Source: Nautilia profundicola AmH (GTDB taxonomy: Bacteria; Campylobacterota; Campylobacteria; Campylobacterales; Nautiliaceae). From it: a DNA stretch of 64,000 bases. The stretch is from positions 645,001-709,000 of the forward strand of contig NC_012115.1 of assembly GCF_000021725.1 (NCBI RefSeq). The letters run 5' to 3'. Positions 16,151-52,640 of the stretch are shown here, piece by piece. The position numbers and the translations under genes were made by a program. Under the pieces are notes generated by a model. It was not told the origin of the DNA and did not search any database. It was given only the letters and a program-made list of their open reading frames with translations. Each line of letters opens with the position of its first letter. Position 1 is the stretch's first letter.

Positions 16151-16182
16151 TTTAAGTTTTTTTTAAAATTTCAGGGTATAAT
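16151..16182 (+). promoter_or_regulatory. Promoter of the hypBCDE operon
   Basis: TTTAAGTTTT (16151-16160) and a perfect TATAAT (16177-16182) with a 16-base T-rich spacer: the best promoter in the window. It predicts a start near 16189, which would place the structured leader at 16209-16303 inside the hypB 5' untranslated region. Confidence 0.7.
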
Positions 16183-16208
16183 TCTGTGTATTGAATAGTT
16201 ATTTTCTT

Positions 16209-16303
16209 AAAATTTCATTTTTTTCAAACGGCTTCACTACGGTGCCCGAAATTAAAAATTTCGACCGTAACGTTGTGCAGATGTTTTCTCAAAATGAAAT
16301 TTT
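16209..16303 (+). ncRNA. Candidate structured leader RNA upstream of hypB (copy 1 of 2)
   Basis: A 95-base element closed by a perfect 13-bp inverted repeat (AAAATTTCATTTT at 16209-16221, AAAATGAAATTTT at 16291-16303). Inside is a second stem (ACGGT with ACCGT, plus CGAAATT with AATTTCG, loop AAA) at 16239-16268 with a 3-base bulge GCC. The loops on both sides (TTTCAAACGGCTTCACT and CGTTGTGCAGATGTTTTCTC) are unpaired or weakly paired. A second copy at 52518-52609 has the same core but an outer stem altered by compensating changes. It ends 27 bases before the hypB ATG and follows a strong promoter. It looks like a cis-regulatory RNA; ligand unknown. Confidence 0.7.
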
Positions 16304-16330
16304 AAAAAATGCAATAAAAAAGGAGTCAAT

Positions 16331-17041
16331 ATGGCTGAAATTATCAATGAAGATATTAAAAACAACCCTCAGTTATCACATAAAGTTACCGTAATTGAAA
16401 AAATTCTTTCTAAAAACAACGCTATGGCGGATGAAATCAGAAAACAGTTTGATGAACATAAAATAACATGTTTTAATATGATGAGTTCCCCCGGAAGCGG
16501 GAAAACAACAACTCTTGAAAATTTAGCAGGTAAACTGCCGTATAAATTCGGAGTAATTGAAGGAGATTTGGAAACGAGCAGAGATGCCGAGAGAATCAGA
16601 AACAAAGGTATCTGGTCATTTCAGCTTCAGACAGGAAGAGCCTGCCATCTTGATGCCGGAATGGTAAAACACGCAATGCCTGAATTCCCGTTTGACGATG
16701 TGGAAGTTGCGTTTATTGAAAACGTGGGTAACCTTGTATGTCCTGCAAGCTATGATGTAGGAGCTCATTACAATATGGTATTCGTAAGTGTTCCGGAAGG
16801 TGACGATAAAATCGAAAAATACCCTGTAATGTTCAGAAAAGCCGATATAGTCGTTATTACAAAAGCGGATATGGTTGATTATTTTGATTTTAATATCGAA
16901 AGAGCAATTGAAAACGCAAGAAAACTAAAACCTGGAGTCCCGGTAGTACTTCTAAACAATAAAACGGGCGAAGGGCTTGATGAAATAATAGATTGGATTA
17001 AACAAAAAAGAGAAGAACACTTAAAGTCAATTGAGAATTGA
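16331..17041 (+). CDS. hypB: Hydrogenase nickel-incorporation GTPase HypB
   Basis: A 236-residue SIMIBI GTPase that, with HypA, inserts nickel into NiFe hydrogenase large subunits. The P-loop is SSPGSGKTT (about 52-60), the switch region EGDLETSRDAERI follows, and the metal site Cys-His is in GRACHLDAGM. The base-recognition motif is ITKADM. The N-terminal CxxCGC nickel-binding tail of some HypBs is absent, as is usual for epsilonproteobacteria. GGAG lies five bases before the ATG. The C-terminal residues and stop come from a heptamer array. hypA is not in the window. Confidence 0.95.
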   Translation: MAEIINEDIKNNPQLSHKVTVIEKILSKNNAMADEIRKQFDEHKITCFNMMSSPGSGKTTTLENLAGKLPYKFGVIEGDLETSRDAERIRNKGIWSFQLQTGRACHLDAGMVKHAMPEFPFDDVEVAFIENVGNLVCPASYDVGAHYNMVFVSVPEGDDKIEKYPVMFRKADIVVITKADMVDYFDFNIERAIENARKLKPGVPVVLLNNKTGEGLDEIIDWIKQKREEHLKSIEN

Positions 17042-17073: not shown

Positions 17074-17388
17074 ATGTGTCTTGCAATACCGAGTAAAGTT
17101 TTGAGTATAGATGAAAACAATATAGCAGAAGTTGATACTCTTGGAGTAAAAAGACAGGTTAGTCTTGATTTGATCCAGGAAGAGGTAAAACCTGGAGATT
17201 ACGTGCTTATTCACGTAGGATACGCAATGGGTAAAATTGATGAAAAAGAAGCCCTCGAGAGTATAGAAGTATATAAAATGCTGGCGGAAGCCGCAATGGA
17301 GGATGATTTTGCGATAGATCCAGAAAAACTGGTCAATGAAGACGGCCCGCTTTTATATAAGCCGGAGGAAGAAGAAAATAAACAATAA
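17074..17388 (+). CDS. hypC: Hydrogenase maturation chaperone HypC
   Basis: A 104-residue HypC/HupF protein. The N-terminus MCLAIPSKV has the essential Cys2 that works with HypD in building the Fe(CN)2CO group and docking it on the hydrogenase precursor. VHVGYAMG-type residues (LIHVGYAMGKIDE) are conserved in the beta-barrel. The C-terminal 25 residues are acidic and variable. It has AAAAGGAG upstream and lies between hypB and hypD in one operon. Confidence 0.95.
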   Translation: MCLAIPSKVLSIDENNIAEVDTLGVKRQVSLDLIQEEVKPGDYVLIHVGYAMGKIDEKEALESIEVYKMLAEAAMEDDFAIDPEKLVNEDGPLLYKPEEEENKQ

Positions 17389-17405
17389 ACTGAATGGAGC
17401 CGAAA

Positions 17406-18524
17406 ATGAGTGATTTAACACTAAAAGATCTGTATTTTAAATTCAGAGACCCGACCGCTATGAAAACTTTGGCTGAGCTTATCAGAAAAGAAGCCAAAGG
17501 TCTAAAAGAGCCTATGAGGGTAATGGAGATATGCGGAGGACATACGCATACTATTATGAAATACGGGATCAAGCAGCTTTTGCCTGAAAATATAGAATTT
17601 ATACACGGTCCCGGGTGTCCTGTGTGCGTAATGCCGAAAGAAAGAATCGACCATGCAATCGAACTTGCTAAGCAGGACGGTGTTATTTTGGCGACTTTAG
17701 GGGATATGATAAGAGTGCCCGGAAGTAAAAGTTCGCTTGCGAAAGTAAGGGCTGAAGGGGCTGACGTAAGACCGCTTCATTCAACTTTGGACGTTCTTAA
17801 AATTGCAAAAGAAAACCCTGATAAAAAGGTTGTGTTTTTCGCAATAGGGTTTGAAACGACTACACCTATGACTGCAGCTTTAATGGAAAGGGCATTTAAA
17901 GAAGGTATTAAAAATATCTATTATCATATAAACCATGTACTTGTACCGCCTCCTATGAGAGCAATAATGGACAGCGGTGAAGCTAAAATAAACGCATTTA
18001 TAGGTCCAAGCCACGTCAGTGTAATAATCGGGGCTAAAAGTTATCAGTTTTTGGTAGACAGTTATAATACACCTGTTGTAGTAGCGGGGTTTGAGCCGGT
18101 GGATGTGATGGAGAGTATTTTGATGCTTGTACGCCAGAAACTAAAAGGCGAGCCGAAAGTGGAAATACAATATAAACGTGCGACAACATGGGACGGAAAC
18201 GTGTTGGCACAAAAAATGATTGATAAATATATGGATGTAAGAGACACGTTCAGATGGAGAGGGCTTGGAGATATCCCGAAAAGTGCATTGAAACTAAGAG
18301 ACGAATATGCGGAGTTTGATGCAGAAAAAGTGTTTGCGGATATTTTACCGAATGAGCCGATTGACGATCATAAACTTTGTATCTGCGGACAGATTTTAAG
18401 AGGTCTTGCAAACCCGACAGACTGTAAAGTGTTCGGAACGGCATGTACGCCAAGCTCACCTCTTGGAAGTTGTATGGTAAGTGACGAGGGTGCATGTAAT
18501 GCGTATTACAGGTATGCAAGGTAA
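17406..18524 (+). CDS. hypD: Hydrogenase maturation iron-sulfur protein HypD
   Basis: A 372-residue HypD. Hallmarks are the CGGHTHTIMKYG motif, the GPGCPVCVMP cysteines of the redox site, FAIGFETTTP, and the C-terminal cysteines that hold the 4Fe-4S cluster (CICGQ, ACTPSSPLGSCMVSDEGACNA). It cooperates with HypC to receive cyanide from HypE and add it to iron. ATG 17406 is chosen because GGAG lies five bases upstream; the ATG at 17394 precedes that site. Confidence 0.95.
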   Translation: MSDLTLKDLYFKFRDPTAMKTLAELIRKEAKGLKEPMRVMEICGGHTHTIMKYGIKQLLPENIEFIHGPGCPVCVMPKERIDHAIELAKQDGVILATLGDMIRVPGSKSSLAKVRAEGADVRPLHSTLDVLKIAKENPDKKVVFFAIGFETTTPMTAALMERAFKEGIKNIYYHINHVLVPPPMRAIMDSGEAKINAFIGPSHVSVIIGAKSYQFLVDSYNTPVVVAGFEPVDVMESILMLVRQKLKGEPKVEIQYKRATTWDGNVLAQKMIDKYMDVRDTFRWRGLGDIPKSALKLRDEYAEFDAEKVFADILPNEPIDDHKLCICGQILRGLANPTDCKVFGTACTPSSPLGSCMVSDEGACNAYYRYAR

Positions 18525-48607: not shown

Positions 48608-49822
48608 TTAAAAAAAGTAAATTCCAGCGAAAATTGTTGATATTCCAAAAATTATAAGAATTATTGATGACAGGATAGTATTTTTTCTTCCGAAATAAAT
48701 AGCATATATTGCTTTTAAAATATTATTGCTGCCTGTTGCTATGAAAATTGCTTTTAGAAGTAAAGATTTGCTGATTAAATATTTTCCAGTAAGAAGAGAA
48801 AGTATATAAGGGTCAATATCTGTAAAACCAATGATAAATGATAATATCTGAAGCCCAGTATTTCCATAATGTGATGTAATATATTTCGTAATAACCATCA
48901 TGGCAACGAATAGTAAGGCAAATAAAAATGCTGTTTGTAATTCAAGAGGATTTTGGTCACTTACATAATCAGATGTTTGATCGTTTTTATAAAAAATAAA
49001 AGATAAAATTATCATGATTCCTGCAAATCCGATATAAAAAAGACTCATTGATTTAGCAATCTCAATATTAAAGATATATGCTATTGCAAGAATTCTTATA
49101 TACATCATGGCCGTAGCTATAATAATTGCACTGTTTAAAACGGGAGAGCTTATTTCTTTCGCTTTTTTTGCGAGTACTACTGTTGTTGCAGTTGAAGAAT
49201 ATAGCCCTCCTAAAATTCCGGTAATAAGATATCCTTTGTTTTTAAAGAAATATTTTTGCAGAATATAACTAAGATACGAAATACCGGATATTATTACCAC
49301 CGCCAGCCATATTTTAAACGGTGAGATATCAATAAAACTTAAGTTGTTTTTCGGAAGCAGCGGAAGAATAACGGCACTTAAAAGTATAAATTTTCCTAAT
49401 GTTTCGAATTCTGTAATGTTAATGTTTTTTGTAAAAGTTTGAAGATGTGTTTTTGAGTTTAGTATAAATACCACAAGAACAAAAATAAGTGATGGCATCC
49501 ATATACTATATTCAATGCTTATAGGTCCCAACGCATATACAACTTCAGCTACTAAAAATATAATAATGCTTGATTTGTTTTGTTTTAATTTTTGTATATA
49601 AAAAAGAGAAAAAAGAAGAGTAAAGCTGAATAATCCTAATATATAAAGCCAAATATCGATTTTATAGAATATAAATCCGAGAAGACCGAGTAGTGTATAT
49701 GTCCTGACTGAGCCTATTAGGGAATTTTCTTTATGTTTTTCTTCTTTATAAGTTTTAAGCTCAAGTCCTATTAAAAAACTAAATGCCGTCGTTATAATCA
49801 AATGAATTAAATCAGGGTTCAT
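48608..49822 (-). CDS. MgtC/SapB-like membrane protein with DUF4010 domain
   Basis: A 404-residue membrane protein. The N-terminal part (FLIGLELKTYKEEKHKENSLIGSVRTYTLLGLLG) matches the MgtC/SapB domain. The C-terminal DUF4010-type part includes GILGGLYSSTATTVVLAKKAKE and SFIIGFTDIDPYILSLLTGK. About 11-12 hydrophobic segments are visible. It overlaps the P-type ATPase gene by four bases, so both are made together; a role in ion or pH homeostasis is inferred. Confidence 0.8.
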   Translation of the reverse strand: MNPDLIHLIITTAFSFLIGLELKTYKEEKHKENSLIGSVRTYTLLGLLGFIFYKIDIWLYILGLFSFTLLFSLFYIQKLKQNKSSIIIFLVAEVVYALGPISIEYSIWMPSLIFVLVVFILNSKTHLQTFTKNINITEFETLGKFILLSAVILPLLPKNNLSFIDISPFKIWLAVVIISGISYLSYILQKYFFKNKGYLITGILGGLYSSTATTVVLAKKAKEISSPVLNSAIIIATAMMYIRILAIAYIFNIEIAKSMSLFYIGFAGIMIILSFIFYKNDQTSDYVSDQNPLELQTAFLFALLFVAMMVITKYITSHYGNTGLQILSFIIGFTDIDPYILSLLTGKYLISKSLLLKAIFIATGSNNILKAIYAIYFGRKNTILSSIILIIFGISTIFAGIYFF

Positions 49823-52485
49823 ATTACTTCAATTCCTTTTACTTTTCTATAATATCGTAAAACTGTGATTTTTACAAAGTCGTTTACAACAAACCAGCTA
49901 AGTGCATAAACCCACATAAAAATTGCCCATTCCCATCCTATTGGTGTCATTATACCGAATCCATACACGGCAATTACAGTACCTATGATTCTTGTTGTGA
50001 ATGTGGCTGTAAATAAAATTAAAGATGGGTAAGGTTTTTTGAAAAACCAATCGTCAATTCTTGTATTGTATATAGTGCCGTGTCCAGCAATTACCATTTT
50101 TGCAAAAAACAAAGACTGCACAAACGCTAAAAATGAATTTTTATCTTCAAAATGCACCCATTTCGGTATATCAGGTAAAATTACCGCACTTTCTGGGTGT
50201 GATTGTAAATAAATCATTACAATATAAAAAATAGTAAAACTGCTTATAACTCCTGCTACTCCCAGCCATGATGAAAGAACCAGCATTTCATGCATATCCC
50301 ATCTAACAGGTTTTTTTCTTAGTTTGGTATTATCATAAGCAATAGCAAGAATCGGGATATCGTTTAGCAGTGCCAAAACGATAATCATAATAGATGTTAA
50401 AGGATAAAAATTAAACACAATAATAGAAAGCGTCATAAAAATAACTATTCTGATGGTTTCGGCTATTCTGAAAATCGTATAGCTTTTCATTCTTTCAAAA
50501 GTAATACGGGCTTCTTTAATTGCATCAATAATAACTTTTAATCCAGGTGTCAAAAGTACAATATCCGCAGCCGCTCTTGCAGCATCTGTTGCACCGCTTA
50601 CGGCAATCCCTGTATCGGCTTTTTTAAGAGCAGGTGCGTCATTTACACCATCTCCTGTCATTCCGACAATATGATCTGCTTTTTGCAGTTCATCGACTAT
50701 AAAATATTTGTCTTCCGGAAACACTTCCGCAAATCCGTTTGCTTCTTCTATTATTTTAATAATTTCACTTTCATGTCTTTTTACTGTACCTTTTGTTAGA
50801 GTTGTGCTTATTTCTTTTTTTACAAGTGAAACGATTTCATTTACTTTTTTTTGTATTTCTTCTTCACTGATATTAAGTGTTTTAAGGAGTGCTTTTGAAA
50901 TAATAACGGCCAGTTTTACATATTCGTCATGTGTTTCGTTTTTTAGCTCTTTAATAGAATAGATTTTTTCACCGATACCTAAAATTTTAGCTATATATCT
51001 GGCGACTGCCACATTGTCGCCCGTTACCATTTTAACCTCAACACCTTTTGCTTTGGCTTCTTCAATCGCTTCTTTGGAATCCGCCCTTGGAGGGTCATAT
51101 AAAGGAATGAGCCCTAAAAAGTGAAATTTGGAATCGTTTTCCTGTTTATATGCAACCCCTAATGTTCTAAATCCATCATTTGCAAACTCTTCTATTTTTT
51201 CATATGCTTTTTTCTTTTCTTCCTCACTCAAATCGCATAATTCTATTATAATTTGAGGAGCACCTTTTGTTGCGATTATTTTTTTACCGTTTATTACAAT
51301 TACACTTTCAGTTCTTTTTCTTACCGGGTCAAAAGGGATAAACTTTTCAAGAGTGTAATTCGGAAGTTTAATACTATTTTTTTGGGCCCATTCAAAAATA
51401 GGTTTTTCAATAGGGTCGTTATTTTCTTTTTTGCTTGCAAACAGGGCGTATCTTATCACTTCTTCAACTGTATGGTTAGCAAATGTAAAAATTTCTCCGA
51501 CGGTCATTTTGTTTTGTGTAAGCGTGCCTGTTTTGTCAGAACAGAGAATATCCATGCCTGCCATTTCTTCAATTGCGGCAAGACGGCTGACAATCGCCTG
51601 TTTTTTTGCAAGATTCATAGCCCCTACAGCCATGACTACTGTCAGTACGGTCGGAAGCGCTACAGGAATAGCCGCTACAGTTAAAACAAGAGCGAAAGCT
51701 AAAAGTTCCCATAAATCTTCGCCTCTTTGAATACCGACAAATACAATTAGCGCAACTAAAACTACTGTTATTATTATTAAAAAGTTTCCGACATTTATTA
51801 CCATTTTTTGAAAATGGCTTCTTTGATTTGCTTTGGCTTTTGCAACAAGTCCAACTGTTTTACCGAAATATGTATTAAGTCCTGTACCGACAACAAGAGC
51901 CGTCATTTCTCCTTGTTTAATAATGGTGTTTGAATAAGCAATGTCACCCGGCTTTTTATCAACTGGTAGACTCTCACCCGTAAGTGCAGATTGGTCAACC
52001 GATAAAAATTCACTTCCCTGTACCAGTTTGACGTCGGCAGGAATAATATCACCTATTTTAATTTTGATAATGTCCCCAGGTACTAATTCCCTTGCCGGAA
52101 TTTCCTGCCATTCACCGTTTCTTAAAACTGTGGCTTTTCTTGCAAGTTTGCTTTTTAATACTTCAATTGCATTAAGTGCTTTATGTTCCTGATAAAAATC
52201 TAAAAATGCGTTGGTAAACAGCATTATCATAATAATTACAAAGTCTTCCCATCTGTGAACTGCTGCACTTAATATGGCTGCAACTTCTATCATCCAGGGA
52301 ATAGGCCCCCAAAATCTTCTAAATATTCTGTGCCACAGAGGCTCTTTATATTCAGGGAGTTCGTTGAAACCGTATTTCTTGAGTCTTTTTTTTGCTTCTT
52401 CACTGTTTAAGCCGTTATTGATATCGGTTTGAAATTCCGCGGCTACTTTTTCAATGGGGATGTTTTTGTAATCATCTGTTTTCAT
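49819..52485 (-). CDS. Plasma-membrane-type H+-ATPase (P3A P-type ATPase)
   Basis: An 888-residue P-type ATPase. Landmarks are the actuator TGES (DQSALTGESLPVDKKPGD), the PVALPTVLTVVMAVGAMNLAKK membrane helix, phosphorylation Asp in CSDKTGTLTQNKM, KGAPQ nucleotide site, and the hinge MTGDGVNDAPALKKADTGIAV. The lack of CPC and the N-terminal region (LKKYGFNELPEYKEPLWHRIFRRFWGPIPWMIE) place it with proton-exporting P3A ATPases. A ~60-residue insert (about 515-575) lies in the P domain. It is preceded by a copy of the hypB leader element. AAGGAG is before the ATG. Confidence 0.9.
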   Translation of the reverse strand: MKTDDYKNIPIEKVAAEFQTDINNGLNSEEAKKRLKKYGFNELPEYKEPLWHRIFRRFWGPIPWMIEVAAILSAAVHRWEDFVIIMIMLFTNAFLDFYQEHKALNAIEVLKSKLARKATVLRNGEWQEIPARELVPGDIIKIKIGDIIPADVKLVQGSEFLSVDQSALTGESLPVDKKPGDIAYSNTIIKQGEMTALVVGTGLNTYFGKTVGLVAKAKANQRSHFQKMVINVGNFLIIITVVLVALIVFVGIQRGEDLWELLAFALVLTVAAIPVALPTVLTVVMAVGAMNLAKKQAIVSRLAAIEEMAGMDILCSDKTGTLTQNKMTVGEIFTFANHTVEEVIRYALFASKKENNDPIEKPIFEWAQKNSIKLPNYTLEKFIPFDPVRKRTESVIVINGKKIIATKGAPQIIIELCDLSEEEKKKAYEKIEEFANDGFRTLGVAYKQENDSKFHFLGLIPLYDPPRADSKEAIEEAKAKGVEVKMVTGDNVAVARYIAKILGIGEKIYSIKELKNETHDEYVKLAVIISKALLKTLNISEEEIQKKVNEIVSLVKKEISTTLTKGTVKRHESEIIKIIEEANGFAEVFPEDKYFIVDELQKADHIVGMTGDGVNDAPALKKADTGIAVSGATDAARAAADIVLLTPGLKVIIDAIKEARITFERMKSYTIFRIAETIRIVIFMTLSIIVFNFYPLTSIMIIVLALLNDIPILAIAYDNTKLRKKPVRWDMHEMLVLSSWLGVAGVISSFTIFYIVMIYLQSHPESAVILPDIPKWVHFEDKNSFLAFVQSLFFAKMVIAGHGTIYNTRIDDWFFKKPYPSLILFTATFTTRIIGTVIAVYGFGIMTPIGWEWAIFMWVYALSWFVVNDFVKITVLRYYRKVKGIEVI

Positions 52486-52517
52486 GTCTGCTCCTTAACT
52501 CATTGTAAGCATTCTTA

Positions 52518-52609
52518 AAATATTGTTTTGAGAAAACATCTGCAACGTAACGGTCGAAATTTTTAATTTCGGGTACCGTAGTGAAGCCGTTTGAAAAAAA
52601 ACAATATTT
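52518..52609 (-). ncRNA. Candidate structured leader RNA upstream of the H+-ATPase gene (copy 2 of 2)
   Basis: Reading on the minus strand, 92 bases closed by AAATATTGTTTT and AAAACAATATTT (12 bp perfect). The core is identical to copy 1 at 16209-16303 except for G to A in the bulge, one A/T change after ACCGT, and a 2-base deletion in CGTTG(TG)CAG. The outer stem differs from copy 1 by three base-pair changes, each compensated. It ends 32 bases before the ATPase ATG, in the same orientation as copy 1 relative to its gene, and lies between the lpdA stop and the ATPase. Confidence 0.7.
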
Positions 52610-52640
52610 AAGATTGCTAAAACTTTCATAAACATTTATT

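Follow-up and report, generated by a model that had tools for sequence, protein, structure and literature searches.

Small palindromic intergenic repeats of Campylobacterota with a conserved core and covarying arms, including a copy in the hypB leader of Nautilia profundicola

The ERIC repeat (IRU, RU-1) is a 127-bp imperfect palindrome of enterobacteria, and hairpins formed by ERIC and by the NEMIS repeats of Neisseria have reported effects on mRNA processing or stability (PMC2229807). The repeat described here, found in Campylobacterota, is of this known ERIC- and NEMIS-like kind in its behaviour, that of a small intergenic palindromic repeat, and is unrelated in sequence to anything searched. 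Campylobacterota thereby gain a palindromic repeat family that appears to be undescribed in Rfam and in the literature searched, and whose design, a conserved core within freely covarying arms, differs from that of known small palindromic repeats. We interpret it, with a probability of about 0.7, as a family of small mobile palindromic intergenic repeats, some copies of which have been co-opted as RNA hairpins in leaders or between cistrons.

The window analyzed is a stretch of 64,000 nucleotides, positions 645,001–709,000 of the single contig of 1,676,444 bases that forms the genome of N. profundicola. It contains two copies of the repeat, inverted relative to each other and both in sense orientation, as the first-pass annotation had reported; on rereading, the sequences agree letter for letter. 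From stem to stem, copy 1 occupies 16207–16305 on the forward strand and copy 2 occupies 52515–52611 on the reverse strand, both read directly from the sequence. The full repeats, as bounded by covariance model R2, extend over 16193–16322 (forward; 87.6 bits, E = 2.4e-16) and 52498–52625 (reverse; 91.3 bits, E = 3.2e-17). Over 104 nt the copies share 88% identity (E = 3e-32), far beyond chance, and they fold 4.1–4.2 standard deviations better than their dinucleotide shuffles.

In copy 1, the left outer arm TTAAAATTTCATTTT (16207–16221) pairs in folding with the right outer arm AAAATGAAATTTTAA (16291–16305). Between them lies the conserved core with its asymmetric internal loops, CAAACGGCTTCACTACGGTGCCCG..CGACCGTAACGTTGTGCAGATGTTTTCTC (16225–16290; alignments A1 and A3), which includes the apical hairpin CGAAATT-AAA-AATTTCG (16247–16263). 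All these parts are on the forward strand. Copy 2, on the reverse strand, has the arms TTAAATATTGTTTT (left, 52598–52611) and AAAACAATATTTTAA (right, 52515–52529) around a core at 52530–52593, recognized in the sequence and in the same alignments. The three double changes noted earlier between the two outer stems (U-A to A-U, C-G to U-A and A-U to G-C) are real. Copy 1 is followed on the forward strand by hypB (16331–17041; gene list and alignments to relatives), hypC (17074–17388) and hypD (17394–18524), with 27 bases between 16303 and the hypB start codon at 16331. Copy 2 lies between an upstream gene and the P-type ATPase gene (49819–52485, reverse strand), the start codon of which, at 52485, is 32 bases from 52518. 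A 'perfect promoter' had been proposed just upstream of copy 1; the scan for sigma-70 promoters was empty, and the sequence offers only a TATAAT −10-like box at 16177–16182 (forward strand), the TTGACA box being absent.

The unit of the family is an intergenic imperfect palindrome of about 110–135 bp that folds into one long hairpin. Its common core, GGCTTCAC-NNN-GGGTnCCC-hairpin-GACCC-CGTTGCAGA, is set within long arms that keep pairing and not sequence. The hairpin comprises variable self-complementary outer arms, an asymmetric internal loop conserved in sequence (GGCUUCAC / GUUGCAGA) and an apical stem. In the consensus, the asymmetric loop region GGCTTCAC / GTTGCAGA is nearly invariant, whereas the outer stem, which can reach about 28 pairs, has a sequence that varies from genus to genus. 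Terminal sequences are common within subfamilies (GARTYCTCTGAA; TAGACTTCTT) and differ between genera. An alignment of 36 sequences strongly supports the structure: all 28 pairs of the outer helix are doubly changed in at least one copy, and the doubly changed cells number 291, where shuffles give 118 ± 10 and slid controls no more than 130. In the apical hairpin, helix 4 of the covariation analysis, 95% of the cells are paired and double changes occur at eight of nine pairs. The covarying structure noted from two copies is borne out across the family.

A covariance model, R1, built from 13 Nautilia copies has matches in other families of the order, and the element was found in Arcobacter-, Sulfurimonas- and Sulfurospirillum-type genomes. 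An exact 19-nt core pattern retrieved many Campylobacterota contigs from a general genome collection (Sulfurimonas, Sulfurospirillum, Arcobacter and uncultured Campylobacterales), and nearly all of these loci have the same hairpin fold and match R1. Chance matches to the pattern in other phyla have neither; no element was present at 71 pattern loci outside Campylobacterota or in viral contigs. The family is patchy: the strict pattern occurs in at least 11 of 397 members of the class, and the Nautilia subfamily lacks the exact pattern, which makes this a lower bound. Because the model searches scored few candidates in each genome, the extent given here is a minimum. The first-pass annotation had recognized no known riboswitch class, and the element has no Rfam match at the gathering score in the 64-kb window or at E ≤ 1 for eight loci.

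Presence or absence at orthologous sites reveals gain or loss of the element. In the sister genome G001 the spacer before hypB contains unrelated sequence, and the element is absent from this spacer in all other Nautiliaceae read there. Judged from these sequences, the hypB copy is specific to N. profundicola, and any function of this copy is putative. The site of the P-type ATPase copy is empty in two congeners. One site filled in the Nautilia genome G002 is empty in G000 and G001 and shows a likely AATT target duplication; this AT-rich site is the only one with a visible duplication. In Arcobacter-type genomes the hypB-hypC gap measures 0–8 nt in 17 genomes and 122–130 nt, with the element, in seven; G086, from a different genus, also has a copy between hypB and hypC, with different arms. 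The gpmI-fabG spacer is filled in several Sulfurimonas genomes and empty in most. In the same spacers, Sulfurimonas species carry different, unrelated palindromic repeats, as if the spacer were a shared landing place. At spacers of the Nautilia genomes G001 and G000, positions occupied by the element in one species carry different AT-rich inverted repeats (GTTAGTTAAGG..., GTGAAGTTGTGAAG...) in its sister.

Where copies are shared, they are strongly conserved. The Arcobacter hypB-hypC element has 89–100% identity (96–100% in the five closest genomes) versus 66–86% at hypB fourfold sites in most pairs; the pair G028/G325 is uninformative (98% in both). The Nautilia queC copy retains 101/110 positions versus 24/79 at neighbouring fourfold sites, and the selD copy 105/109 versus 55/106. 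Four Sulfurimonas copies gave 106/110 versus 74/111, 99/110 versus 67/109, 97/110 versus 71/108 and 106/110 versus 62/103. In all these comparisons the fourfold sites may be saturated, the genomes being AT-rich, and only recognizable copies enter, those decayed further escaping detection. Of the spacers compared within a region, the one bearing the element came first or second in conservation; spacer controls are few, and the element gaps were recognized mostly by their length (122–143). Gene conversion between copies does not account for this pattern, because the arms differ between sites and are kept between orthologues. Conservation in place above fourfold sites, and usually above other spacers, suggests that some copies probably work as RNA.

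Under the preferred reading, the repeat would be a small, non-autonomous mobile element whose spread depends on a putative enzyme that acts in trans and reads the core folded as RNA or single-stranded DNA. If the core is read by such a protein, the loop sequence must stay fixed, and the arms must pair with their sequence free. Copies landing between genes would be co-transcribed with them, and sense copies in leaders or between cistrons could, by analogy with ERIC and NEMIS, be retained as hairpins that determine how an mRNA is processed or how stable it is. Several observations speak against this reading. Y1/RAYT transposases do not co-occur with the repeat. For N. profundicola, the genome paper reports a single potential transposase and no typical transposons (PMC2628731). 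The ends, in contrast to those of classical MITEs, are not conserved between genera, and only the AT-rich site mentioned above shows a target duplication. The strong conservation at shared sites also exceeds the needs of a purely selfish element. A mobile structured RNA module is a rather unlikely, though not negligible, variant. Here the phylum-conserved folded core would be carried as a unit, the outer stem would be rewritten in each copy under selection for pairing only, and fixed copies, for example in the hyp operon, would be kept by purifying selection as working RNA, a single putative core-binding protein both mobilizing the element and acting in mRNAs.

Near-palindromes are a substrate of template-switch correction (quasipalindrome mutagenesis), and the arms of the repeat are near-palindromic. 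The covariation could then reflect palindrome correction at the DNA level and not selection on the folded form, in a neutral MITE-like repeat with no functional copy. Random placement and orientation and the empty sites agree with this, as does the existence of half copies and of an arms-only allele. G053 holds half copies and single arms at several places, and in the gpmI-fabG spacer of the Sulfurimonas genome G280 both outer arms are joined with the core missing. The latter allele prompted the idea that cores are inserted into the middle of palindromes already present; core deletion is the simpler account, as three related genomes hold the core with the same arms, and a tree does not discriminate between the two. 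However, such correction should remove the asymmetric mismatches of the core as well, yet these mismatches are the best conserved part of the element. Copies shared between species, moreover, exceed fourfold sites in conservation and, for the most part, other spacers too. We therefore regard a purely neutral origin as improbable.

We give an equally small chance to the copies being dispersed small RNA genes, each an independent trans-acting structured RNA selected in place with position and orientation irrelevant. Such genes would account for conservation at orthologous sites whatever the neighbours, including the 3′ convergent position behind selD, and for arms that are conserved between orthologues and differ between sites. 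Yet sister species differ greatly in copy number and sites, many copies fill a whole gap within an operon and leave no room for a promoter, and a site scan found no terminator-like site near the hypB copy.

The first-pass annotation favoured a cis-regulatory RNA over a mobile repeat. On this reading, a new riboswitch-like or protein-binding leader class would sense a ligand through its loops and control downstream genes such as hypB. The covarying structure and the conservation in place stand, and covariation, the lack of an Rfam match, three sense leaders in the N. profundicola genome and an independent sense copy, conserved in place, between hypB and hypC of the Arcobacter-type hyp operon would all fit such a class. 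Placement, orientation and neighbours do not, nor does the lack of the element in the hypB leader of G001 and of every other member of the Nautiliaceae read at this site. The N. profundicola genome has seven full copies and one partial copy. Six of these eight lie beyond the two of the window, and most of the six are outside a leader position. Sense leaders make up three of the eight (hypB, queC and the gap upstream of the P-type ATPase gene). Three more are antisense to both neighbours: one in the spacer of an exonuclease-like gene and its downstream neighbour, one beside formate dehydrogenase genes and one between two genes of unassigned function. The remaining two, the copy behind selD and the partial copy, are between convergent genes. 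Placement and orientation thus differ from copy to copy and are not those of one regulatory class. Such scatter is among the findings that the first-pass annotation had itself named as refuting a cis-regulatory class.

The same holds family-wide. Nearly all of about 58 copies surveyed are intergenic, often filling the entire gap. After orthologues and duplicates were merged by hand to about 47 unique sites, there were 18 co-directional sense, 12 co-directional antisense, 8 convergent and 7 divergent sites, with no orientation bias between sense and antisense (p = 0.36). Adjoining genes include mutS, dapE, ftsY, radA, dnaK, grpE, gpmI, fabG, miaA, rnhB, arsC, ureF/ureG, hypB/hypC, flgE, queC, selD and many more, and the full list, named by eye from translations, has no common functional theme. 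A nickel, hydrogenase or selenium theme, prompted by the hyp, ure, selD and fdh neighbours, is not upheld by this list. A copy is found between ureF and ureG in G325 (C1:818222-818349); with the hypB-hypC and hypB copies it makes three nickel-enzyme operons. Unrelated neighbours (mutS, dnaK, fabG, queC, selD, arsC, ureG, ftsY) and the many antisense or convergent copies lead us to reject a riboswitch or leader class, and a cis-regulatory class in general seems very unlikely. Covariation and mobility are not mutually exclusive in this repeat.

Three sources of mobility were dismissed: a REP/RAYT system, since Y1 (PF01797) is absent in nine genomes that carry the repeat (G158, G368, G028, G086, G325, G159, G397, G026 and G036); arms borrowed from IS ends, since in the stretches read the G053 arm motif occurs only in elements, half copies and single arms; and carriage by plasmids or phages, which gave no match to the repeat, none of 15 pattern matches in viral contigs fitting the model. 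A single Y1_Tnp (PF01797) protein of 251–293 aa is found in all six Nautiliaceae genomes tested (G000 C1:388043-388372 and relatives). With dnaA at position 1 and GC skew checked, the sense strand is the leading strand for eight of nine distinct Nautilia copies (G000) and for all seven copies in five complete Arcobacter-type chromosomes (G028, G159, G325, G397, G401). No replication-strand bias is claimed, as Sulfurimonas and other drafts gave about 5 leading and 10 lagging copies by local GC skew. In Nautilia and Arcobacter-type genomes, the leading-strand placement may point to insertion into single strands.

The family shows that a mobile repeat is compatible with double compensatory changes from one copy to another, a point that matters when regulatory RNAs are sought automatically. 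With arms that covary freely, an asymmetric core that does not vary and shared copies that are conserved, it offers a testable case of a mobile hairpin turning into a working RNA, and the hypB-hypC and gpmI-fabG spacers, filled in some genomes and empty in others, are natural experiments at hand. Among known systems, Rfam riboswitches and leader motifs share with the repeat covarying stems, conserved unpaired loops and sometimes a 5′ leader position, whereas the repeat matches no Rfam family and has no consistent downstream function or orientation. REP/REPIN sequences with their RAYT (Y1) proteins are likewise intergenic hairpins with strand-specific features; the Campylobacterota unit is longer, RAYT is missing in most element-bearing genomes, and a Y1 protein is present in element-free Nautiliaceae. 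The Correia or NEMIS repeats of Neisseria resemble it in their size of about 107–155 bp, long transcript hairpin and gene-adjacent insertion, but have conserved terminal inverted repeats of about 24 bp, whereas the ends of the Campylobacterota repeat vary between genera and even copies (PMC2229807). ERIC is alike as a dispersed intergenic imperfect palindrome of similar size, with possible co-transcription with neighbours and with filled and empty sites. The two differ in that 5,426 E. coli genomes gave no match to the Campylobacterota repeat (E ≤ 0.01), and in that this repeat conserves a core while its arms covary freely.
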